Below, piece after piece: positions 12,545-28,955 of a stretch of 43,617 bases of DNA. The stretch's first letter is position 1, and each line of letters opens with the position of its first letter. The DNA lies in the IMG/VR virus record IMGVR_UViG_3300010373_000403, positions 1 to 43,617 of that record; one strand, written 5' to 3'. The DNA comes from a virus. The notes beneath the pieces were generated by a model. The model saw only the letters and a program-made list of their open reading frames with translations, was not told the DNA's origin and searched no databases. Position numbers and translations under genes: made by a program.

Positions 12545-13492
12545 CTAGATGCCTAACTGGTGAGGTAGTGAGTTGCCGAGCGCGAGGGCGTCGCTGATCG
12601 CGGCGATCATCCCGTCTTGGTACTGAAAATGGCCCGCATTTTGGCCCGCGCCGAAGAACTCAGCAGTGTTCACGAGTGCCTCGACGTCGCCGATCGGTTT
12701 ACCCAGGAGTGTCGCCAGTTCGATGATGTCGACGAAATTGGGCTGCATGATGATGCGGAAGAACAGGTACTCGACGCTGCCTACCGATGGCAGTGACGTC
12801 CAGGGTGAGCTGCCCACGGGTGCGTCGGCGTAGAGGTCGTTGGGGTTGACGAATGAGTAAATCAGGAACTTTCCGTCTGGCGCCTTGAGGTTCGCCTGCT
12901 CGACGGTGTAATCCAGTGGTCCACCTATACCCCCGGTGATCTGACCGTCGACCTTGCCGGGCATCGGCATCCCCGCGAGTTCGTTGCCGTGGGCGATGCC
13001 TGGGCAGCGGAACGGATCGCCGAACGCGTAGATCCGGTAGATGTATGGCAGCAGATAGTGGAAGGGCGCGCCGTCCGGCAGGACATCGAGGAAGAAGAAC
13101 TGCAGCGCCGCCATCACGCCTTGCGACCACGCCGAAATGATCTGCGCCAAACCTTCATACGTGCCGTGTTGCTTGTAGTAGCGCATGGCATGTGCGCCCG
13201 TCTGGATGCCGAGGTTGGCTCGGCCGGTCTGCACGCTCGGCCACATCGGCACCGTCTTGGCCGGGTAGCCGACACCTGGGGATTCCCACAGACCGTCAGC
13301 AACGTTGGCCAGGCCGCCCACAACGCCGGAAGCAAAGCCGCACCAGTAGCCGTTGCCGTCGTCGGTGATGAAGCTTGGTGGATTCGGTGCTCCCGGATAG
13401 ACGGTGCCTTCGACGGCGAAGATCGCGCCAGCCGGGCTATAGACCTTCCCGTTTGCTTGCGCGCGGACGTTGACGAATAGGCTACTTGTCAC
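12545..13492 (-). CDS. lysB: Lysin B (mycolyl-arabinogalactan esterase)
   Basis: 315 residues, alpha/beta hydrolase. The nucleophile elbow is AWSQG with S123. The acid is likely D219 in NPNDLYADAP and the histidine H288 in AGHFQYQ. Other family-like strings are YAFGDPFRCPG and GYPAKTVPMWPSVQTG. Lysin B cuts the ester bond joining mycolic acids to arabinogalactan at the end of lysis. The GTG start overlaps the upstream gene by 11 bp. Not a PE/PPE protein, because the gene context is a phage lysis cassette. Confidence 0.9.
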   Translation of the reverse strand: MTSSLFVNVRAQANGKVYSPAGAIFAVEGTVYPGAPNPPSFITDDGNGYWCGFASGVVGGLANVADGLWESPGVGYPAKTVPMWPSVQTGRANLGIQTGAHAMRYYKQHGTYEGLAQIISAWSQGVMAALQFFFLDVLPDGAPFHYLLPYIYRIYAFGDPFRCPGIAHGNELAGMPMPGKVDGQITGGIGGPLDYTVEQANLKAPDGKFLIYSFVNPNDLYADAPVGSSPWTSLPSVGSVEYLFFRIIMQPNFVDIIELATLLGKPIGDVEALVNTAEFFGAGQNAGHFQYQDGMIAAISDALALGNSLPHQLGI

Positions 13493-13865
13493 GGTGCGCT
13501 TCTAGCGCCTGCTGCGTCGCACTGGGCTTCGGAGGCTCACCCTTGTAGTTGACGCTCAGTGGCTCGTCGTCATTGATGTGAATGTTCTGGGACAGCACCC
13601 ATTTCGTGCATGTACGCAACATGTCGAGAGCGTCGTAGTCGTTGCCGTCCTGCAGCTTTGCCGTGCGATCCAGGTTCTTGTCGAGGCTGGTGATGGAGTC
13701 CCAGCGTGAGGACGTGACGTTGCTGACCTCTGGATAGGCGTAGTCGATTGAACGCCCGAACATGTGGGAGTCATAGAAGCGCGCGACCAGCGCCTCGGGG
13801 AGGGCTGGCGTTCCGGGGCCGCTGTTGCCGTTGGCGAGATTGTTGACGTCCTGATCTGCGGTCAC
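13482..13865 (-). CDS. Hypothetical protein between lysin A and lysin B (127 residues)
   Basis: GTG start overlapping the lysin A TGA (GTGA). Hydrophilic, Asn/Asp-rich (DQDVNNLANGNSGPGT, TSLDKNLDRTAKLQDGNDYD). A central segment has RFYDSHMFGRSIDYAYPEVS, and the C-terminus is a short basic helix. No domain recognised. Coupling to lysin A suggests a lysis-related or regulatory part. Confidence 0.7.
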   Translation of the reverse strand: MTADQDVNNLANGNSGPGTPALPEALVARFYDSHMFGRSIDYAYPEVSNVTSSRWDSITSLDKNLDRTAKLQDGNDYDALDMLRTCTKWVLSQNIHINDDEPLSVNYKGEPPKPSATQQALEAHRDK

Positions 13866-15235
13866 GATTTGCTCCCTTGAATGAAAGACTCAACCTCACG
13901 CTTAAACGCCGCCAACCCGTCACGCACGGTGAGTTCCTGGCCTTGCGAGTTGGTGCCCATGGAGGATTCCGGCCCCCAAATGTCGGGTCCTAGCTGAGTC
14001 AGGATGTTAACCACGGCTGCGGCGATGCCCATGACCGCGTTGTACATATCTGCTTGCTGTTGATCGGTGAGCGCCATGAATGCGCCTCCTCCTGAAGGTG
14101 GTTGCGGTGGTGCGGGCTGGTATTGTCCGTAGTCGTCGGTGTGTGCTTCGTTGATGTCGCATTGGACGCCGTCGATGGTTTGGTAGCCAAGGTTGTTGCG
14201 CTGCATGATATTTACGGCGCTCGTGATGGAATTCCCAGACCAAGCTTCTGTCTGCCAGATGTATTTGACGCCGACGGCGCCCTGGGCGCGGGTGCAGATC
14301 CAGTAGTCGCCGTAGAGCCCGACGTAGTCCATCCCGCCGAGCACTGATGCCGCGCCCTGTAGGTATTGCTCGACGGGAGTGTCTTGGTTGGGCGCTTCGT
14401 CGAAGTCGCAGGAGAAGTAGATGGCGGGGTTGTGTGGTGCGCCGGGAAGGCTGCGCACGTAGTTGAGTGCGACCTGGGCGTCGGCCACGCCTGCGCTGTA
14501 GCCGCCGAGCATGAAGTCGGCGGTGGTCTCCCAGTTGAAGACGACCGCGATCCCATTGGCTGTCAAGTCAGCGAATTCGTCTGGGAGCAACTGCTTTCCC
14601 GGCAGACTTGAGCCTCCATCGCTCAAGTATCGGCAGACGAATGCTGCGCCCGCGGCTTTGAGTGATGCACCGCTGATCCTGCCGCCCGCATAGTCATAGC
14701 CGCGCGGGTAACCCATCGCTTGCCTCCGTGGTGTGTCTTCGATGATCGGGCCGTCGTAGACGTACCAGTCGTTCCAGTACGTGCTGCTGATGCCGGTGAT
14801 TTCGGGCGGTTCAGTACACACGCCGTAGTCTCCGTTGGATTCCATGTCCCAGCCGTCGATCTGGCAGGCCATGTGGCTGTTGGGTCCGCCGCCGCCGTGC
14901 ATGATGCACACCTTCAGCGGGTAGTCACCGTTGACCAGATCGTCTTTGGTGGTGCGCCGGAAACCTGGCAGCGGGCCGGGGAATGTCTCGGTGGAGAACA
15001 GACGCGACCACGACATGCCCGGGCCGTTGATCGCTGCGCCCAAGACGATGCCGCACAGGCCGGAGCAGTCGGCGCCGACACCAAAGTTGTAGGGGTCGAA
15101 CACGCCTGCGTACTCGTATTCGTCGCCGGGGCCTTCGTCGATGTCGGCCGATTGTAGGAGCGGTTGGGCGTCGGTGGTGAGGCGGTCGAGAAAGACGCGC
15201 TGAGCGAAATTTATGTTGGAACGCAGGAGGGTCAC
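13862..15235 (-). CDS. lysA: Lysin A endolysin: cysteine peptidase plus DUF1906 glycosidase-like domain
   Basis: 457 residues, GTG start with GAGG upstream. The N-terminal domain (~1-165) is NlpC/P60-like: catalytic Cys57 in GADCSGLCG, His121 in NSHMACQ and a further polar residue in DMESNGDYGV. The central domain (~177-385) matches DUF1906 (Rv2525c-like glycoside hydrolase): RGYDYAGGRISGASLKAAG, AIYFSCDFDEAP, GLYGDYWIC. The C-terminal ~65 residues are helical. Cleaves peptidoglycan at lysis. Domain order is typical of modular mycobacteriophage LysA. Confidence 0.88.
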   Translation of the reverse strand: MTLLRSNINFAQRVFLDRLTTDAQPLLQSADIDEGPGDEYEYAGVFDPYNFGVGADCSGLCGIVLGAAINGPGMSWSRLFSTETFPGPLPGFRRTTKDDLVNGDYPLKVCIMHGGGGPNSHMACQIDGWDMESNGDYGVCTEPPEITGISSTYWNDWYVYDGPIIEDTPRRQAMGYPRGYDYAGGRISGASLKAAGAAFVCRYLSDGGSSLPGKQLLPDEFADLTANGIAVVFNWETTADFMLGGYSAGVADAQVALNYVRSLPGAPHNPAIYFSCDFDEAPNQDTPVEQYLQGAASVLGGMDYVGLYGDYWICTRAQGAVGVKYIWQTEAWSGNSITSAVNIMQRNNLGYQTIDGVQCDINEAHTDDYGQYQPAPPQPPSGGGAFMALTDQQQADMYNAVMGIAAAVVNILTQLGPDIWGPESSMGTNSQGQELTVRDGLAAFKREVESFIQGSKS

Positions 15236-20351: not shown

Positions 20352-23300
20352 TTATGAGGAAGGCAGCAGAACGCCGCCGACCGCGCCCCAGCTATAGGAG
20401 GTCGACTGCGTCGCCGTGAAATTCACGGTCGAACCACCCGCGACATCACCAATCACCATCGGAATACTCGCCGTATTGGCCTGGTTCCAGCGGCTAGTCT
20501 GATTGAACGAACTCAATACATACGGTGCTCCCGCGAAACCACCAACAACCAACTGCCCAGCAGTCGACCCGATCCCCGACAGCGACAACGCGGTACCCGT
20601 ACCGGAATTGTCGTAGAAGTCCCCGAACGAACCCACGTTCTGATACGACATCGTGTTGCCCGCCAACTGACTGATGGTCGCGCCGCTCACACCGATGCTG
20701 ACGGTCTGCGTCCCCGAAGGGGGTCCGATGATCCCGAACGCGACTATCCCGAATGCGTGACCGCTGGCGTTGTAGTAAGTCAGCTCGCCCAACTCGTAAA
20801 TGAACTGCGACGTCCCGTACGTGCAAACAACAGTGGGGGTGCCGGCCGAGTATTCGACGGCGCCTATCAGCACTACCGCGCAGTTAGATCCGCCGCCGGA
20901 GGTGTGGGTCCAGGACAGCGAGTTCGTTCCGGTGTTCTCGCCGCCCGTACCGGTCGCTTCGTAGACCACGGACAGTTCGCTACCGCCGCCGATACCACCA
21001 CCGGTGCCGACAGTGCCCGCCGTCGAAGAACCCTGCCGGGCAGTCAAATACACGGCACCCGCCCCGCCAGCGAACTGGCGTCCAACAGGCTCGGTGGCCT
21101 GATTACCGCCCGACGCCGCCCCGCCGGGCGCATTACCCGGATACGCCAAAGCAGCAGTCGTGGCCCCCCCGACATAGGTGCGGCCAGCCCACGTTTTGTT
21201 ACCAGGACCCGGACCCATGCCGGTGGTGGCCTGGTTGGTGCTGGCCGGGTTGTAGTTCGCAGTGCCGCCGGGGCCGCCCGCCTGACCGCCGTCCGCGGAA
21301 AACAGGACCGTGCCGGCCGGATTCAACACAATCGACAGAGCACCCCAACTGTCGGCGACAGTCGAGGTTGCAGTGAACGTTGTCGGCGCGGTCGCATAAC
21401 TGAGCGACAACCCCACCGAATAGTAGTTCCCGTTGGGAACGTATCCGTAGAAGCGGCGCGTTCCACCGGTGAAGCTACCCAACTGGCCGTAGCCTTGGTT
21501 GGCAAACGCCTGCACCACAAGCTGATTGGCGCCGCAGTCCACCGTCTGGGATAGCGCGGTCCCTTTTCCGTAGGCCTCGGTGACCAGCCCGGCGCAGGAC
21601 ACGTTGGTGAATGAGATTGACTCACCGGTGAAATAGGCAGCTTTATCGGTGGTGACGGTGATGGTGCCCGTACCAGCTGGGGCGTCCTCCATGCCGTACA
21701 CGGCCAACGCCGCCACACCGCCAGTGTTGTTGAGATAAACCAAACCCAGCGGGATCATCGGCGTCGAACCGTATTTGACGTCGAATGTGCCCCAGGTCGT
21801 GTTCAAGCCGGCCAGCACATAGGCGCCCCCGGCTGCGGTGTGAGACCAAGATAGGGTTGTTCCGTTTCCGTGTGCACCCACGCCGACGGAATCGAATTGG
21901 GGTGGGCTGTCAAATCCGTAACCGACGATGGTTTTGGATCCCGAGCCGCTGGGGGCGTTACCCCCGGCCCCGACGAACACCGTCAGATCGGTTGTCCCCG
22001 ACGGTATGTCGGTGCCGTACACAACGGTCTTGGACGCCCATTTGCCCGGCTCGCCGCCCTGTCCGAGATTCAACGTCCCGTACGGGATGCCCAGGAATGA
22101 GCAATAGTTGCCATCTGCCCACCCGGCCGCACCGCCAGCGCCGCAGCCGGCAATGTCAAGCAAGTCACCGGGCAGCATTGTCGTCGGCAACGTGTACGTC
22201 GACATGCCCGCGGACTCGAAGGGCTTCTGATTCGGCGGCCAATACACCGGCGGAATATCAGACACGCTCATGCACACAAACGGGCGGCTGCCGCCGTAGC
22301 CGAGCTGCGCCGGTGTCAGCGACGCCGGGGAGGCGCCCCCGGTACTGGCCGTGGTACGTGCGGCACCTAGATTCGGGGGAACCTGGTACGCCTTGTTCGG
22401 AGCCCCCGAAGTTTGGGCGACCACGCTGATCGCAGTAGCGGCGACGATCTCCCAGGCGATCAACTGCCCCAACGGCACCGACGGCTGATCCGCAGTCGGA
22501 ATGCTGACCGGAGTCCATTCATAGTCACCGGTGGAGATCCCCGACGACAGATCGCTAGACGACCACAAGTTCGTCAAATCCCCCGTGACCGAATCCATGC
22601 TGTAGAGGTTCAGGTAAACACCCGAGGGCGTTCCGGAGGATTTCGCCATGAACTCCACAAACCCGACGGTGATCGCCGGGTTGGTGTTCATGAACCCGAT
22701 GAGCGTGGTTCCCGCGGCGATAGTGACCGTCGGCAGCGTCCCGTCGGGCAACGGAAAAGTGACCTGCCCGGTTGGCTGATTTCCCTGCGAAAGAGGTTGC
22801 ACCGAAACGTTACTCAAAATCTGGTGGTTAATAACCCCAAGCCCATAGGCGACCGCGAGATCGTTCGCGGATTTCCCTTGCGATTGCAGCATCTGAGCCA
22901 ACGTGGTTCCCGACACCGACGTGCCGCCAGTCGCGGAGTTGAACCCGTCGAACATGTTCTGAAACGCCGTCGCCACATCCGCGATGCCCTGCGGGCCAGA
23001 CACCTGTTCCCCAGCGAGTTTCGACAGGGTGGTGGCATCGATCAACGCCCCGTCCACCAGATTCGTTGGGGCGAACACCATCCCGTCGAGGTCGACCCAG
23101 ACGATGCCGGTGACCATCGCGTCCGACGACACGTTGACGAACTGCCGCGCGCTCGCGGTGCCCGGAGGCATGACGAAGTCGGCCTGCAGGGTGACGTAGT
23201 TCCAGTGACTGGACGGCTCGGGGTCGCTGATCGTGGCCTCGTCGGCAAGGATCTCGGCCAGCAAGTTCCCGGCAGAGTCGTAGGCGTTGATACCCGCTTC

Positions 23301-25061
23301 AATCGCCGCACCCGACGCGGTCACGTTCACCCACATCACCGGCGCCGCGGCCGTGATGACCTCACCCTCCGACACCGCGAACGGTTCACGCAGGAACTGG
23401 TGTTGAATCCCATTAGGAGACGGATGAATCAGTCCATCGCGTTTAGCCTGCGCCGCAATGTTGGTCAATTCATCCAAGGCGATCTGAGGGAAGGTCCGCT
23501 CGTCCCCCTTCGCCAGGAACGGTTGCGCCTTGTAGTACATGTTGTGCGGGCTCGTCGCGCCGCCAAGCGCAGTGATCTGCGCCATCACCTGGCCGAGATA
23601 ATCCTCAAGGATCCCGATCAGGCCACCCAGTCCGTACTTGGAGTCCCAGGCGATGATGTTCTCGAGGATCGTGCCAGCGCCCGTGTAGGACTGGTTGATG
23701 AAGGCGTAGAACTGGCGCAGCGACAGGCCGGGGATGCCCGCGATGTCACCGACGTTCCCGCACACCGCGTCCGCAGGCGGGATGACGGTCACACCACTGA
23801 TCGGGGTGCACGCGTAGTAGTCACCCGGCGCGCAGAAGTCCCACCACAAATCCTCGGTACCGACGAGGTTTCCGATCTTCGGGTTGGACGGATTGGCGCT
23901 GCCCGCATACGGTCCCGTCGTCATCAACGACACACAGCACATGCCCGCTGTCCCCGGCGCCGGATCCGCATAACCCGGGAAGGTGTGGCCTTCTTCGCGT
24001 CTCAGGTTTCCGAACGCGAACCCGCCCAGGAAATCCTTGCGCCGGCTCTGCATGGTACCGAACCGCAGCTCATCGTAGACAGCCGCGCCGACCTGACAGC
24101 CTTGACTGTCCATGATGAACACGAACGGCCCCGGCGTCGCGTTGATCTGATTTATCAACCAGGTGGCACCCGACTGCACCGACGGACCCATCGGATACTC
24201 AGCCGCAGGATACGGGACGTTGATCCACTCGAAATACGTTTGGTCGGTCCCCGTCAACGCCCAATCAACGACATACCCCAGATACGCCAACACGGAATCG
24301 TCTGGGTTGCCGGAGGCCTGACGCAGATACTCAAGAATGATGCCGCTCTCCGTGGTAATCGGAGAGAACAAGCTGATTCCCTGGCTCGTGCCGACGATGT
24401 TATAGATGACAATCCGGCCCGGACGAATCGTCCGCACCGCACCCGATGGCGTGTTACCCAGCCATCCGTCCCAACACCACAAACCCTGACCCTGAATCCC
24501 CGCACCCATGTTGAAACCGGGGTTGTGTAGGGCGTTCTTCGTGGTGCCGGAGGGTGCGAGCGCTTTGAACAGGTTGGCGGGGATCGCGGTGTTGGCGGCT
24601 AGAAGCGTGCCGAGCTGCTGCAACGCCTGATCCGGCGTCAGCTGCGGCACGGTGGGCGTCGTGGAGCTGGTGCCCCCGCCGCCCTGCCCGAAGAAGCTGA
24701 GTAGCCACTGGATCAGGTTGAAGTTGTTGGTGGAGGTGGTCTGCGCGCTGGACGCCGTCTGCAGCGCCGTGGTCGCGGTTCCCTGCGCGCTCGTCGCGGT
24801 GGTCTGCGCACCCGTTGCCACCCCGAGCGCCTGCTGGGCCTGCTGCTCAAGCGCTTGGCCCCACGCAGTCAGGAAGGCGAACGGCTTGACCCCGAGGATG
24901 CTGATGCCACCCAGGGCCATCGCGACCTGACCCAGGATGCCATCGAGGAACGCCTCACCGTACGCCGCCTGCTGTCCCGGGCTGAACGGCTGCTGATTAA
25001 GTCCGCTGGACGGCGCCTGATGGACCGAGGGGTCCGGCGTGGACGCTAACGGGTAGCTCAT
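20352..25061 (-). CDS. Large minor tail protein (1569 residues) with a lysin-B-like esterase domain
   Basis: Layout: N-terminal region with a Thr/Ala heptad stretch (ATGAQTTATSAQGTATTALQ, ~80-115). At ~215-530 is an alpha/beta hydrolase resembling lysin B, with nucleophile S319 in MDSQGCQVGA, acidic EDLWWDFCAPGDYY (~400) and SPHNMYYK (~505). The string YPMGPSVQSG parallels PMWPSVQTG in this phage's own lysin B. A middle adhesin-like region follows, then Gly-rich segments and two copies of a ~185-residue beta domain (~1068-1252 and ~1382-1569). Probably the tail-tip protein that digests the mycolate layer on entry and binds the receptor. Confidence 0.82.
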   Translation of the reverse strand: MSYPLASTPDPSVHQAPSSGLNQQPFSPGQQAAYGEAFLDGILGQVAMALGGISILGVKPFAFLTAWGQALEQQAQQALGVATGAQTTATSAQGTATTALQTASSAQTTSTNNFNLIQWLLSFFGQGGGGTSSTTPTVPQLTPDQALQQLGTLLAANTAIPANLFKALAPSGTTKNALHNPGFNMGAGIQGQGLWCWDGWLGNTPSGAVRTIRPGRIVIYNIVGTSQGISLFSPITTESGIILEYLRQASGNPDDSVLAYLGYVVDWALTGTDQTYFEWINVPYPAAEYPMGPSVQSGATWLINQINATPGPFVFIMDSQGCQVGAAVYDELRFGTMQSRRKDFLGGFAFGNLRREEGHTFPGYADPAPGTAGMCCVSLMTTGPYAGSANPSNPKIGNLVGTEDLWWDFCAPGDYYACTPISGVTVIPPADAVCGNVGDIAGIPGLSLRQFYAFINQSYTGAGTILENIIAWDSKYGLGGLIGILEDYLGQVMAQITALGGATSPHNMYYKAQPFLAKGDERTFPQIALDELTNIAAQAKRDGLIHPSPNGIQHQFLREPFAVSEGEVITAAAPVMWVNVTASGAAIEAGINAYDSAGNLLAEILADEATISDPEPSSHWNYVTLQADFVMPPGTASARQFVNVSSDAMVTGIVWVDLDGMVFAPTNLVDGALIDATTLSKLAGEQVSGPQGIADVATAFQNMFDGFNSATGGTSVSGTTLAQMLQSQGKSANDLAVAYGLGVINHQILSNVSVQPLSQGNQPTGQVTFPLPDGTLPTVTIAAGTTLIGFMNTNPAITVGFVEFMAKSSGTPSGVYLNLYSMDSVTGDLTNLWSSSDLSSGISTGDYEWTPVSIPTADQPSVPLGQLIAWEIVAATAISVVAQTSGAPNKAYQVPPNLGAARTTASTGGASPASLTPAQLGYGGSRPFVCMSVSDIPPVYWPPNQKPFESAGMSTYTLPTTMLPGDLLDIAGCGAGGAAGWADGNYCSFLGIPYGTLNLGQGGEPGKWASKTVVYGTDIPSGTTDLTVFVGAGGNAPSGSGSKTIVGYGFDSPPQFDSVGVGAHGNGTTLSWSHTAAGGAYVLAGLNTTWGTFDVKYGSTPMIPLGLVYLNNTGGVAALAVYGMEDAPAGTGTITVTTDKAAYFTGESISFTNVSCAGLVTEAYGKGTALSQTVDCGANQLVVQAFANQGYGQLGSFTGGTRRFYGYVPNGNYYSVGLSLSYATAPTTFTATSTVADSWGALSIVLNPAGTVLFSADGGQAGGPGGTANYNPASTNQATTGMGPGPGNKTWAGRTYVGGATTAALAYPGNAPGGAASGGNQATEPVGRQFAGGAGAVYLTARQGSSTAGTVGTGGGIGGGSELSVVYEATGTGGENTGTNSLSWTHTSGGGSNCAVVLIGAVEYSAGTPTVVCTYGTSQFIYELGELTYYNASGHAFGIVAFGIIGPPSGTQTVSIGVSGATISQLAGNTMSYQNVGSFGDFYDNSGTGTALSLSGIGSTAGQLVVGGFAGAPYVLSSFNQTSRWNQANTASIPMVIGDVAGGSTVNFTATQSTSYSWGAVGGVLLPSS

Positions 25062-25064
25062 GGC

Positions 25065-26180
25065 TTAGAGCGGCACGCCCGCGAAGCCGACTGTAAACGA
25101 CGTCGTCCCCGTCGAATACTTATCGGCCGTTGAAGCCTGCTGCTCGCAATTCAGGTAGATCGTGATGCCCGTGTTGGCGCCGACCTGCGCGTAATTACTC
25201 GTCAGGAGGCCCGCGTACTCGGGGATGGCGTGCACGCTCCACGGGTTGGTGCCGATAACCGAACCTGGGGGGCCGCCGCCGCGGGCGATCTGCAGGCCAT
25301 TGGTCTGGTTGATCGCTCCGCCTAGCCTGGCCACCACGTCCACCTGTGTGTTGGCGGTGCCGGTGATGACGCTGCGCGCGAACGCGAATGGTGTCACCGC
25401 GATCGGAAAGCCGCCGGTGATCGACAGGGTCGCGAGGGTGCGGACCTGGCCGCCCGTGGTCCCGGTGGTGGGGATGTTGGTGATGTTGTACCAGGCAACA
25501 ATTGGAACGGGCTGCCATTGCGCCTCATTGGTGCCCGCGCTGTAGCCGATCATGTAGTGGGCTTGCGGTGTGCCGATGAGGTCGGTGGGTTGCGGGCTGA
25601 TCAGCGTGTTCGCCGCGTCGGCGCCCGTAAGCCCTTGAGGGATGTCCATGTCGACCCGATAGACCGACGCCTCGCCCGGTCCGCCGGGCGCGGTCTGGGT
25701 GAGGGTGAAATCAGCCGGCTCACCGGGTCCGACTGTGGTCGCAGTCCCCTTGGTCAGCTGCGGAGACTCTCCCGGCAGCCCATCGAACACCGGAGGAATG
25801 TTGACCACCGCGCCGCCCGGGCCGAAAACCGCGACAGCTGTTTGGGTTTGAGACGGATTGATACCCGCCGGAAACAACGTCGGCCCGTTATAGAGCGCCG
25901 CCCCTTCGCCGTAACCTTCGGGGTTGAACGTCCACACCCCTTGCGGATAGTTCGTTCCGCCCGCGGTGATGTCGTAGTCCACCAACAGGACCGCACCCGA
26001 CGACGGGGCAGCAGCCAACGTCAACGTCGATGCAGCGGATTCAGTGTAGTCGACGCCCAAATCCAGGCGTGCACCGTTCTTGAAAACCCTTGTGGTGCCA
26101 GTAACATACGGCTGCGCGGTCGTGAACACCCTGTTGGTGCCGTTAACCGAACCGCCCGGCGTCTCACCGTAGATACTCAA
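25065..26180 (-). CDS. Minor tail protein (371 residues)
   Basis: The N-terminal ~90 residues (NGTNRVFTTAQPYVTGTTRV, KNGARLDLGVDYTESAAS) match the structural repeat found in phage tail and baseplate proteins. A central Gly/Pro-rich linker (VNIPPVFDGLPGESPQ) leads to a C-terminal beta domain typical of surface decoration. It lies between the Gp37-like protein and the giant tail protein. Confidence 0.78.
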   Translation of the reverse strand: MSIYGETPGGSVNGTNRVFTTAQPYVTGTTRVFKNGARLDLGVDYTESAASTLTLAAAPSSGAVLLVDYDITAGGTNYPQGVWTFNPEGYGEGAALYNGPTLFPAGINPSQTQTAVAVFGPGGAVVNIPPVFDGLPGESPQLTKGTATTVGPGEPADFTLTQTAPGGPGEASVYRVDMDIPQGLTGADAANTLISPQPTDLIGTPQAHYMIGYSAGTNEAQWQPVPIVAWYNITNIPTTGTTGGQVRTLATLSITGGFPIAVTPFAFARSVITGTANTQVDVVARLGGAINQTNGLQIARGGGPPGSVIGTNPWSVHAIPEYAGLLTSNYAQVGANTGITIYLNCEQQASTADKYSTGTTSFTVGFAGVPL

Positions 26181-26196
26181 CGATTCTCCTAAGCTG

Positions 26197-27903
26197 CTAG
26201 CCGCTCGGCGGGGCGAGCAACATGAGGTTGACGTCTTCTTCGAGACCGACGAGCTTGCGCTGGAAGATCGCCATCGGGGACTCTTCGCGCCGGCCGTCGC
26301 CGACCTGGACTTCGACCTTGCCGCGGTTGTTCACGTCGTCGGTCACGGTGATCACGTCCACGTAGTCGGTGAACACGATGCCCCGCTTGATCACCGACGC
26401 CATCGCGCCGGGGAAGATGTCGCGGCCGACCTGGTAGCCCTGGCCGTTGGTGAACGAGAATTGCGCCGACGGGTAGCCCCTTGTGTCCCACATGGCCTTG
26501 ATGGCGTCCATGAGGGTGTCGACGTTGTAGGTGGACTGCGACGGGAAGAACTTTTCCGGAGGCCCATACGGCCCCATCTGCACGCGCCGGTCGAACGCCT
26601 CGAAAATCTCGAACGCCAGGAACGCGTTATCCAGGATCCCGTCCAACAGCGAGTTCGAGATTCCGGTGATGCCGATGAACATCATGAACATGTCCACGAG
26701 CCACTCGAGGGTTGCATTCAGGAGGTCGTTCAGCCACTGGGGTGAGCGTCCCCCTAGCACCAGGGACCATGCCAACGGTGCGTGGAAGGCGACATCCAAC
26801 GCGGTGATGCCGGAGTCGTCGACGTCGGCGTTGAAGATCACCCACGGCGGGGTGAAGTTCACGCCCAACGTGGGGGCGATGACGATGTTCGAGCCCGGCG
26901 GCACGTACTCGTTGTTCGGGTTGAGGAACGGCGCCAACACTCCACCCAGCAGGCCGTCTTCGGCGTCCAGGCCGAGCTCGAGCAGACCGTCGAACGGGGT
27001 GTCCGTCGGCCCGGTGACACCCATGTAGTCCTTGATGTTGAACACATAGGTGGGGACTTGCAGCGGGAACAGCACACCTGCGGGTTGCGGATCACCGGGC
27101 ATCCACAAATCCAGTGACGGGTAGAGGCCGTTGTCTTTGATCTGCTGGGTGATGAGTTTCCAGCAGGTGTCCATGCGGCCGTGGAACGCCGTCCAGATGG
27201 AAGTGTCGGCCAGCACGTCGTATTGGGCCACGCACACTGGTGTGGTGACCATCTCCATCAAATCGTTGAGGGACAAAGACTGTTGGGTGAGTAGCGTCCC
27301 GAACCAGGTCCGCCAATCCAAGTCCAGCGACCCGAGATGGTTGACCAGATCCCACAACCCGAGCTGCAGACGCAAGTTGTTTTCGGCCACCATCGTTTTC
27401 AGACAGGTGATCGAAGGGCCGATGAAAATCGCTTCGCTGGGCTGAATCTCTATCGGCAGGAACGGGTGCGGCCACACGAGCACACGGTCGAGGTACGTCA
27501 TGATGCCAACCAGCTGGCATTCAACGACTTTCGTGCCGTCTTCGAGCATCTTGTCGTGCGCCGTCTCCACCCAGAACGCGCGGCGCAGCGCACCGTTGGA
27601 GAAGGCGATGGTGACCGGGACCAACTCTTGCCAGCATTTGAGCATCGCCGGTGCGAGGGGATCGTTCGCGTCGACGACGATCTGTGCTTCGTCCAATTTC
27701 AGGCGGGCGATGGTGGCTTTGAGGCTGATGCAGTTGTTCAGCTCACCTTGGACGCGGTAGTACTTGTCGTAGACGACCACGTCCATGTCGGTGGGGACGG
27801 CGGCATCTGGTGCGCCGGCGGCGATGGCGGCTCCCGACGCTGCGACGGCGTCTCCGCCGTTGAGTTGTGTGATCCACGCCTGCTGTTGGGCCGGGCTGGT
27901 CAC
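26197..27903 (-). CDS. Gp37-like minor tail protein (tail hub / Tal-like), 568 residues
   Basis: GTGA-coupled to the Dit-like gene. The sequence is Trp/Leu-rich with DMDVVVYDKYYRVQGELNN, MLEDGTKVVECQLVGIMTYL, WPHPFLPIEIQPSEAIFIGP and a C-terminal RGIVFTDYVDVITVTDDVNN. This pattern is that of the Gp37-like/siphovirus ReqiPepy6 family of mycobacteriophage minor tail proteins, which sit below Dit at the tail tip. No enzymatic motif seen. Confidence 0.82.
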   Translation of the reverse strand: MTSPAQQQAWITQLNGGDAVAASGAAIAAGAPDAAVPTDMDVVVYDKYYRVQGELNNCISLKATIARLKLDEAQIVVDANDPLAPAMLKCWQELVPVTIAFSNGALRRAFWVETAHDKMLEDGTKVVECQLVGIMTYLDRVLVWPHPFLPIEIQPSEAIFIGPSITCLKTMVAENNLRLQLGLWDLVNHLGSLDLDWRTWFGTLLTQQSLSLNDLMEMVTTPVCVAQYDVLADTSIWTAFHGRMDTCWKLITQQIKDNGLYPSLDLWMPGDPQPAGVLFPLQVPTYVFNIKDYMGVTGPTDTPFDGLLELGLDAEDGLLGGVLAPFLNPNNEYVPPGSNIVIAPTLGVNFTPPWVIFNADVDDSGITALDVAFHAPLAWSLVLGGRSPQWLNDLLNATLEWLVDMFMMFIGITGISNSLLDGILDNAFLAFEIFEAFDRRVQMGPYGPPEKFFPSQSTYNVDTLMDAIKAMWDTRGYPSAQFSFTNGQGYQVGRDIFPGAMASVIKRGIVFTDYVDVITVTDDVNNRGKVEVQVGDGRREESPMAIFQRKLVGLEEDVNLMLLAPPSG

Positions 27904-28955
27904 TCAGGCCACCGCCGTTGCGGGTCGATCCGTCCTACGATCTTGCTGCTGCTGTTGCCGCCGGTGATCTTCACGGCGAGGTATTGCGGTGTCGCCCACT
28001 GCGGTTGCCGCACACCCGGGAACGGGATGCTGTAGCGGCCGTTCAGCAGCGAATACAGCGGACCTTGCGGTGGCAGGATCCCAAACAACGACTCGAACCA
28101 CTGGATCAGCGGCGGAATGTTGTTGTTGTACACGAAGTTAACGATGGCTTCGATCAGCTCCTGCACACCGTTGAGGGACTGCGTCGGCGCGGACGTCAAA
28201 TCCGTCAACGTCCGCAACCGGGGCAGTGTGCGCATCAACACGATCTGCCCGGCTTTGAGCGGTCCGAAGTCGATCCACACCTTCGAGTTCTGCCCGTTGC
28301 CGAACGAGAACGTGCCCGGCCCGTAGAACAGCAGGGTCGGCCAACCGAACTGGTCACCGATGTTGAGGAACTTCAAAAACCCTGAACCGCTTGCGGATTG
28401 AAACTCGTCCACCGACGGGAACCCATACCAGAAACCGCTATCGCAGCGGATCGTCTGGGTGAAGGCCTTAGCCCGCAACAGCCGGGGCATCTTCTTCATG
28501 GTGTCCGGCCACGGCTTCGACAACCGGGCGGGGAAATACCAGTAGCCGCGATCCTGCGTCCAATACTCGAACGTGTTGAGCTGGGTGGGATCCCACATGG
28601 ACACCCATTCCGACACCAGCTTCGACAAGCCCTTCGGGGTGTTGGCATGTGCCTGCAGCATCATGTCCATTTCGAGGACGTCATAGGTGGTGCCGGTCCA
28701 CGTCACACCGGGCTGCCGCGCGGCCTTCAAATCGATGTGCTTGAAACCCGGTGTGAGCCCCTTGATCCCGTCCGACAGGATGATGCCGTCCTGGATCCCG
28801 GGCCACGGCTTACCGGCGCCCGCGATTGTGCACTGCGTCAACCCGTCCTGGCTGGTGACCATGATGTTCTCTTCATCACCGGCCAACAGATCGGCCGCGC
28901 CCTGCGGGAGGATCGTCGCATCCGAGGTGGCGCCGATCAGCGGGTAAACCGTCAC
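27900..28955 (-). CDS. Distal tail protein-like minor tail protein (351 residues)
   Basis: GTG start overlapping the tape measure TGA (GTGA). First gene after the tape measure, the usual place for Dit. The sequence shows GFKHIDLKAARQPGVTWTGT, MWDPTQLNTFEYWTQDRGYW and a conserved-looking GWPTLLFYGPGTFSFGNGQ, typical of actinophage Dit-like proteins. Forms the hub joining tail tube and tip. Confidence 0.83.
   Translation of the reverse strand: MTVYPLIGATSDATILPQGAADLLAGDEENIMVTSQDGLTQCTIAGAGKPWPGIQDGIILSDGIKGLTPGFKHIDLKAARQPGVTWTGTTYDVLEMDMMLQAHANTPKGLSKLVSEWVSMWDPTQLNTFEYWTQDRGYWYFPARLSKPWPDTMKKMPRLLRAKAFTQTIRCDSGFWYGFPSVDEFQSASGSGFLKFLNIGDQFGWPTLLFYGPGTFSFGNGQNSKVWIDFGPLKAGQIVLMRTLPRLRTLTDLTSAPTQSLNGVQELIEAIVNFVYNNNIPPLIQWFESLFGILPPQGPLYSLLNGRYSIPFPGVRQPQWATPQYLAVKITGGNSSSKIVGRIDPQRRWPE

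Follow-up and report, generated by a model that had tools for sequence, protein, structure and literature searches.

How mycobacteriophages pass through the mycolate outer layer of their hosts is poorly understood: the virion enzymes that are known act on peptidoglycan, and LysB, which cuts the ester between mycolate and arabinogalactan (PMC6116005; PMC6116114), is known from exit. The catalytic triad of the LysB from phage D29 consists of Ser82, Asp166, and His240 (PMC6116114). The tape measure protein of phage TM4 is an example of a virion-associated lysin (reviewed in PMC6116005; PMC6116114). In the central fibre protein (CFP) of phage Douge, gp20, an N-terminal arm of residues 1–164 precedes an NTD that binds mycobacterial glycans, both arabinan-containing glycans and alpha-glucan, and the fibre has been seen penetrating the outer membrane, with the resulting entry model based on static images (PMC13033339). 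The single components are not new: LysB enzymes and fibres that bind glycans are known, and so are tail proteins with hydrolases of other kinds (Tweety gp19, PMC2884959; PHROG 382). What is new here, within the open-access literature and the match lists that we inspected in part, is a LysB domain built into a tail fibre.

The window analysed is the complete 43,617-base record of an uncultured virus. An open reading frame on its minus strand (25061–20352) encodes a protein of 1569 residues with no internal stops. The features of this gene and its surroundings are:

25065–28955, minus strand: baseplate genes upstream of the fibre gene, predicted distal tail protein, hub, and minor tail protein (PHROGs, Pfam)
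20352–25061, minus strand: minor tail protein, predicted CFP, with a LysB domain (reading frame, PHROGs, Adephagia match, gene order)
24549–25061, minus strand: residues 1–171, N-terminal arm, predicted baseplate-hub anchor (length and position only)
24423–24548, minus strand: residues 172–213, glycan-binding NTD part 1 (GIQGQGLWCWDGW...GAVRT; gapless match to L085, which lacks the LysB insert)
23415–24422, minus strand: residues 214–549, LysB (cutinase-like alpha/beta-hydrolase) nested in the fibre NTD (PHROG 102; 3hc7 match)
24105–24113, minus strand: codons Met317-Asp318-Ser319 with the predicted nucleophile Ser319 (Met is non-canonical at GxSxG position 1)
23820–23822, minus strand: predicted catalytic Asp414 (aligns with the Asp in the GD(I/L)Y motif conserved among LysBs)
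23544–23546, minus strand: predicted catalytic His506 (aligns with the His in the PH-x-x-Y motif conserved among LysBs)
23061–23414, minus strand: residues 550–667, glycan-binding NTD part 2 (all-beta, pLDDT ~65–92; superposes on Douge gp20 up to residue 321)
20352–23060, minus strand: residues 668–1569, stem, tip, and glycine-rich C-terminal modules (PHROGs 346, 553, and 2106; Gly_rich_2)
12545–13492, minus strand: the phage's own free-standing LysB (PHROG 102, E 9.7e-14; 77% identical homologue in L075)

The large protein matches tail PHROGs 346, 553, and 2106, among others, while the Pfam Gly_rich_2 match in its C-terminal region lies below the Pfam cut-off. By BLAST, residues 639–1048 resemble gp27 of Adephagia, a cluster K tail protein, with 30% identity (E 3e-38). 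The gene follows, in order, the tape measure gene (33700–28952) and genes with family matches to a distal tail protein (PHROG 106), a hub (PHROG 110 and Pfam Sipho_Gp37), and a minor tail protein (PHROG 732). In Douge the tape measure gene is followed by those for two minor tail proteins and one small protein, with the gene for the CFP, gp20, coming next (roles from PMC13033339). No match at E<0.01 links the sequence of the window fibre to Douge gp20, with either the fibre or the hub as query phmmer found no solved structure at E<0.01, and the tail region had no megablast match among phage records. Anchoring of residues 1–171 to the baseplate hub is inferred only from their length and position relative to the Douge arm. 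A first-pass annotation of the window had placed the enzyme domain in a tail-tip protein, which synteny and homology with central fibre proteins support, with presence in the virion remaining an inference. It had also proposed that the domain complements a peptidase motif in the tape measure. This part is not supported, as neither the Pfam matches (E<0.01) nor the 25 best PHROG matches of the tape measure include a peptidase.

Residues 274–540 of the fibre match PHROG 102, the LysB endolysins, with E=9.5e-25. Exactly two places in the entire record match this family, the fibre domain and the phage's own LysB. Direct BLAST between these two is weak (E=0.34), and the fibre domain matches the LysB of phage Contagion with E=8e-19. 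Together, the PHROG 102 and Contagion matches place the similarity to LysB far beyond chance, and we therefore consider it real. An AlphaFold2 model of residues 172–667, calculated from a 25-sequence alignment drawn only from the window and related loci, has a mean pLDDT of 71, with ~80–96 in the LysB core and low values in residues 172–207 and in a lid. The model contains an alpha/beta-hydrolase domain for which the top solved match is D29 LysB (3hc7; Z 19.5, rmsd 3.3, 232 of 252 residues). Rv3802c ranks second (Z 19.1), and below it come MSMEG_6394, the relative of Rv3802c in M. smegmatis, as well as cutinases and acetylxylan esterases. A profile of the family alignment against the sequences of solved structures recovers 3hc7 at 1.8e-58, a value to which the other LysBs within the profile alignment contribute. 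Two features of the domain count against the enzyme reading proposed below: a large insert that separates its Ser region from its Asp region, and the low confidence of the lid.

Ser319, Asp414, and His506 occupy the conserved triad columns of LysB alignments in the same sequence order, equivalent to the D29 residues. The nucleophile lies in DSQG (residues 318–321), the acidic residue in PGDYYAC, and the histidine in SPHNMYY, and the triad is kept in the window and in two related loci described below, L062 and L015. Both the fold family and the triad columns are shown by these comparisons, and membership of the fibre domain in the LysB fold and sequence family is established; we do not claim that it is a canonical LysB enzyme. 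It also does not stand alone in a lysis cassette, being an internal domain of a tail gene. Most of what the first-pass annotation had said of the domain held. It had placed a LysB-like domain at residues ~215–530, which we correct to ~214–549. The segments that it named (DSQG with S319, SPHNMYY, and YPMGPSVQSG) are all present in the reading frame at 20352–25061, and the PMWPSVQTG that it compared with the last of these is present in the phage's own lysin B. It had stated beforehand that a model without an alpha/beta-hydrolase fold, or with the catalytic Ser, Asp, and His apart, would refute the idea: the fold was found, and the triad is supported by alignment columns alone. It had also called DSQG a nucleophile elbow; the motif is there, but without the canonical first glycine.

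This last point bears on whether the domain is an enzyme at all. The elbow of the window reads MDSQG, with Met317 at the first position, and does not fit the GxSxG pentapeptide; the nearest relative, L062, with a 65% identical domain, has GDSQG, and 52 of the 53 LysB-type loci examined have GYSQG. The first codon of the elbow is ATG in the window and GGG in L062. Two substitutions in the lineage of the window separate these codons, and a single read error therefore does not explain the methionine. The main alternative reading is that the LysB fold in the fibre is non-catalytic and acts in binding or as a spacer, for example as a receptor-binding module for mycolate lipids or arabinan, and the methionine favours it. 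Against it, Ser, Asp, His, and a GT motif of the oxyanion type are all intact in both the window and L062, and the phage's own LysB has an elbow (AWSQG) that also lacks the first glycine. A residue other than glycine at this position is found in active lipases, such as the threonine in Candida antarctica lipase B. Judged from sequence alone, without activity data, Met317 lowers the certainty of activity and does not exclude it.

Besides the hydrolase, the model has a second domain, which matches the NTD of the Douge fibre (8zdp_v residues 183–321) with a Z of 10.2 and an rmsd of 2.1–2.2 over 112 residues. The aligned range of the model extends from residue 40 or 31 to residue 496 and spans both sides of the LysB domain. 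Because the match to the Douge NTD begins before LysB and ends after it, LysB is nested inside the fibre NTD. The first part of the NTD is the less well covered, as the structural match, which starts at model residue 31–40, includes only the last ~12 of residues 172–213, and pLDDT is low in residues 172–207. An independent view of the insertion comes from another virus record (G004), in which a tail protein, L085, has the same glycan-binding domain without LysB. When residues 214–549 are removed from the window protein, the flanks align to L085 straight through the junction without a gap (E=4e-9), compared with 1.6 for the first flank alone and 9e-5 for the second. Adephagia gp27 aligns to the insert-less flanks in the same pattern, more weakly (0.003). 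The nested location and the empty sites are shown by these comparisons, and we regard the fold and the location of LysB within the fibre as well supported, with its tail-borne status resting on synteny and central-fibre homology. The free LysB of the G004 phage is 77% identical to the window's own LysB. About 3 kb upstream of that G004 gene lies a second, weak match to the LysB family (L079, G004:C1:15097–15603; E 4e-7) with one TAA inside, possibly a decayed copy.

Searches with the full window protein and with a two-sequence alignment as queries identified two relatives, L062 and L069. A domain-pattern search with the window protein alone, over genome contigs and viral collections, found no relative, and neither did a scan of the genome contigs with the pair of sequences. 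L062, on a contig of 46 kb that breaks off within the gene, is arranged likewise, and the region that aligns is 65% identical. Codon comparison with the window gives a dN of 0.30 and a dS of 1.75, which points to purifying selection but is only indicative with dS near saturation. The tape measure of the L062 phage (L062:1–3492) contains a transglycosylase SLT domain (Pfam E 3e-5) and a stretch, GYSGHSDHVHWA, that by eye resembles a D-Ala-D-Ala peptidase; at E<1e-3, BLAST does not connect this tape measure with that of the window.

L069 (L069:7323–13127, in a 78 kb record) is a full-length homologue of the fibre, with 1934 residues, in which the LysB triad is dead: the elbow reads GQGQG, with Ser replaced by Gly, and the His position holds Gln. 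Inside this dead domain lies a beta-lactamase-family domain (PF00144, E 1.3e-35), which also matches PHROG 382, 'minor tail protein with lysin activity', with E 3.4e-107. This makes three nested domains and an apparent in-place replacement of one serine hydrolase by another. L069 also favours the dead-domain reading, and is a point against our own, because it shows that within the same family a LysB domain can be retained without catalysis. The loss of its triad coincides, however, with the gain of another serine hydrolase; a dead LysB and a new hydrolase at the same spot suggest that hydrolysis is selected at this site of the virion. On balance we consider a purely binding or structural role for the window domain unlikely.

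Since the window is the record of an uncultured virus, one could also suspect that the fusion arose as a chimera during assembly or through a frameshift error. Independent contigs carry the same domain in the same place and in one frame in both L062 and L069, and such an artefact is practically ruled out. In a phylogenetic tree, the fibre LysB domains of the window, L062, and L069 form one clade with 99–100% support, from which the LysBs that the phages keep as free genes are separate. On this ground we reject a duplication of the phage's own LysB as the source of the domain.

A fourth tail-borne LysB occurs in a different architecture. In a 126 kb record, a baseplate-J gene adjoins a tail protein of 1964 residues (L015:5704–11598), unrelated to the window fibre, with a LysB domain near its N terminus (residues ~67–351; PHROG 102, E 1e-35; elbow GYSQG). 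Phrappuccino gp88 aligns only to the flanks of this domain, residues 23–66 of L015 pairing with 8–51 of gp88 and 352–645 with 59–340, and the LysB part of L015 is therefore also an insertion. Recurrence of tail-borne LysB is shown by these records. In the tree the L015 domain sits beside the fibre clade on a long branch with 75% support; the carrier tail proteins differ, and a common origin of the two domains remains possible. All four records with a tail-borne LysB also possess a free LysB. In the window this is a separate gene adjoining LysA (13862–15235, minus strand), which has an Rv2525c-like glycoside-hydrolase-like domain (PF08924, E 1.3e-20). The window's free LysB groups with 100% support with L066, the free LysB of the 126 kb baseplate-J phage, despite the different tail types; lysis genes may have been exchanged recently, or the two phages may have a group of hosts in common.

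We propose that the fibre LysB is a virion-borne mycolyl esterase used at entry, a reading that we consider likely (probability about 0.68), with incorporation into the virion, catalysis, substrate, and timing all inferred. The protein would be the central tail fibre of a siphovirus that infects a mycolate-containing actinobacterium, with LysB inserted in a surface loop of the NTD. By homology with Douge, three copies per virion would sit directly beneath the baseplate hub. The glycan-binding fold may hold the virion on arabinan or alpha-glucan while the nested serine esterase, with its predicted Ser319-Asp414-His506 triad, would hydrolyse mycolate esters, either of mycolyl-arabinogalactan or of trehalose mycolates, loosening the outer layer where the tail tube must pass and before it passes. 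The separate LysB would be kept for lysis. The first-pass annotation had already suggested a tail-borne mycolyl esterase acting at entry, and with a non-canonical elbow and no activity data this remains an inference; it had not seen the nesting in the fibre, the relatives, the dead copy with its replacement enzyme, or the second tail architecture.

Another substrate is also conceivable. An active esterase could instead remove acyl groups from surface glycolipids or acylated arabinan, or act on storage lipid or on trehalose mycolates not linked to the wall, and so expose a receptor without breaching the layer. The ranking of Rv3802c as the second-best structure, followed by cutinases and acetylxylan esterases, is consistent with this alternative, as is the activity of LysB enzymes on several lipid substrates (PMC6116005). 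Because the Z scores of 3hc7 and Rv3802c differ by less than 1, structure alone does not decide the substrate. However, LysB is the nearest family by sequence and also gives the top structural match, and the target on which LysB has been tested is the ester of mycolate and arabinogalactan (PMC6116005; PMC6116114); we consider the alternative less likely than not.

The mycolyl esterase reading makes the fibre LysB a concrete and testable enzyme candidate for the outer-layer step of entry, and the recurrence of the domain in two tail architectures together with the in-place swap in L069 suggests selection for hydrolysis at this spot on the virion. A bolder reading, towards which we lean only narrowly, is that some phages of mycolate-bearing bacteria have repeatedly taken free LysB into their receptor-binding tail proteins as a mycolate-layer esterase at the tail tip. 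One domain would then both bind the receptor and open the layer, and in one lineage the esterase would have been inactivated and replaced on the spot, leaving a glycan-binding domain, a dead LysB, and a new hydrolase nested in one protein. As to precedent, we found no report of a LysB domain in a tail protein or virion in the literature searched, which was limited to open access and left most subscription journals outside its scope, and no mention there of a virion enzyme for the mycolate layer. No named phage record matches the fibre and LysB together, and at no place does a match cover 80% of the protein. Nearly all of the phage-record matches that we inspected, from partial lists, are labelled lysin B or endolysin, with two labelled otherwise (e.g. 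DNA helicase), and the matches to L015 annotated as minor tail proteins cover only the part beyond LysB. Tail-borne LysB in named phages remains possible because the lists were only partly inspected.

Compared with known systems, the fibre domain shares with D29 LysB (D29 gp12, 3hc7, PHROG 102) the cutinase-like alpha/beta-hydrolase fold, the Ser-Asp-His columns, and the sequence family. In contrast with D29 LysB and with the annotated matches inspected, all of them free lysis enzymes for exit, it is nested in a tail fibre, contains an additional insert behind the FGN/PGY region, and has a methionine in its elbow. With Douge gp20 (8zdp/8zdq) the fibre shares its gene position (TMP-DTP-BHP-x-CFP) and the fold of the glycan-binding NTD, but at 1569 residues it is longer than gp20 (878), in which the NTD is uninterrupted (165–321) and contains no enzyme (PMC13033339). 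The tail lysins of PHROG 382, a domain type carried by L069 itself, and the tail carboxypeptidase Tweety gp19 (PMC2884959) likewise place an envelope-acting serine hydrolase in a tail protein; these have beta-lactamase or carboxypeptidase folds aimed by annotation at peptidoglycan, whereas the window domain has the LysB esterase fold. Finally, as with virion-associated lysins and tailspike depolymerases, the enzyme would be carried on the particle and act from outside at entry, which for the window is inferred from homology and synteny only; the targets of those enzymes are peptidoglycan or capsule, and the predicted target here is the mycolate layer.
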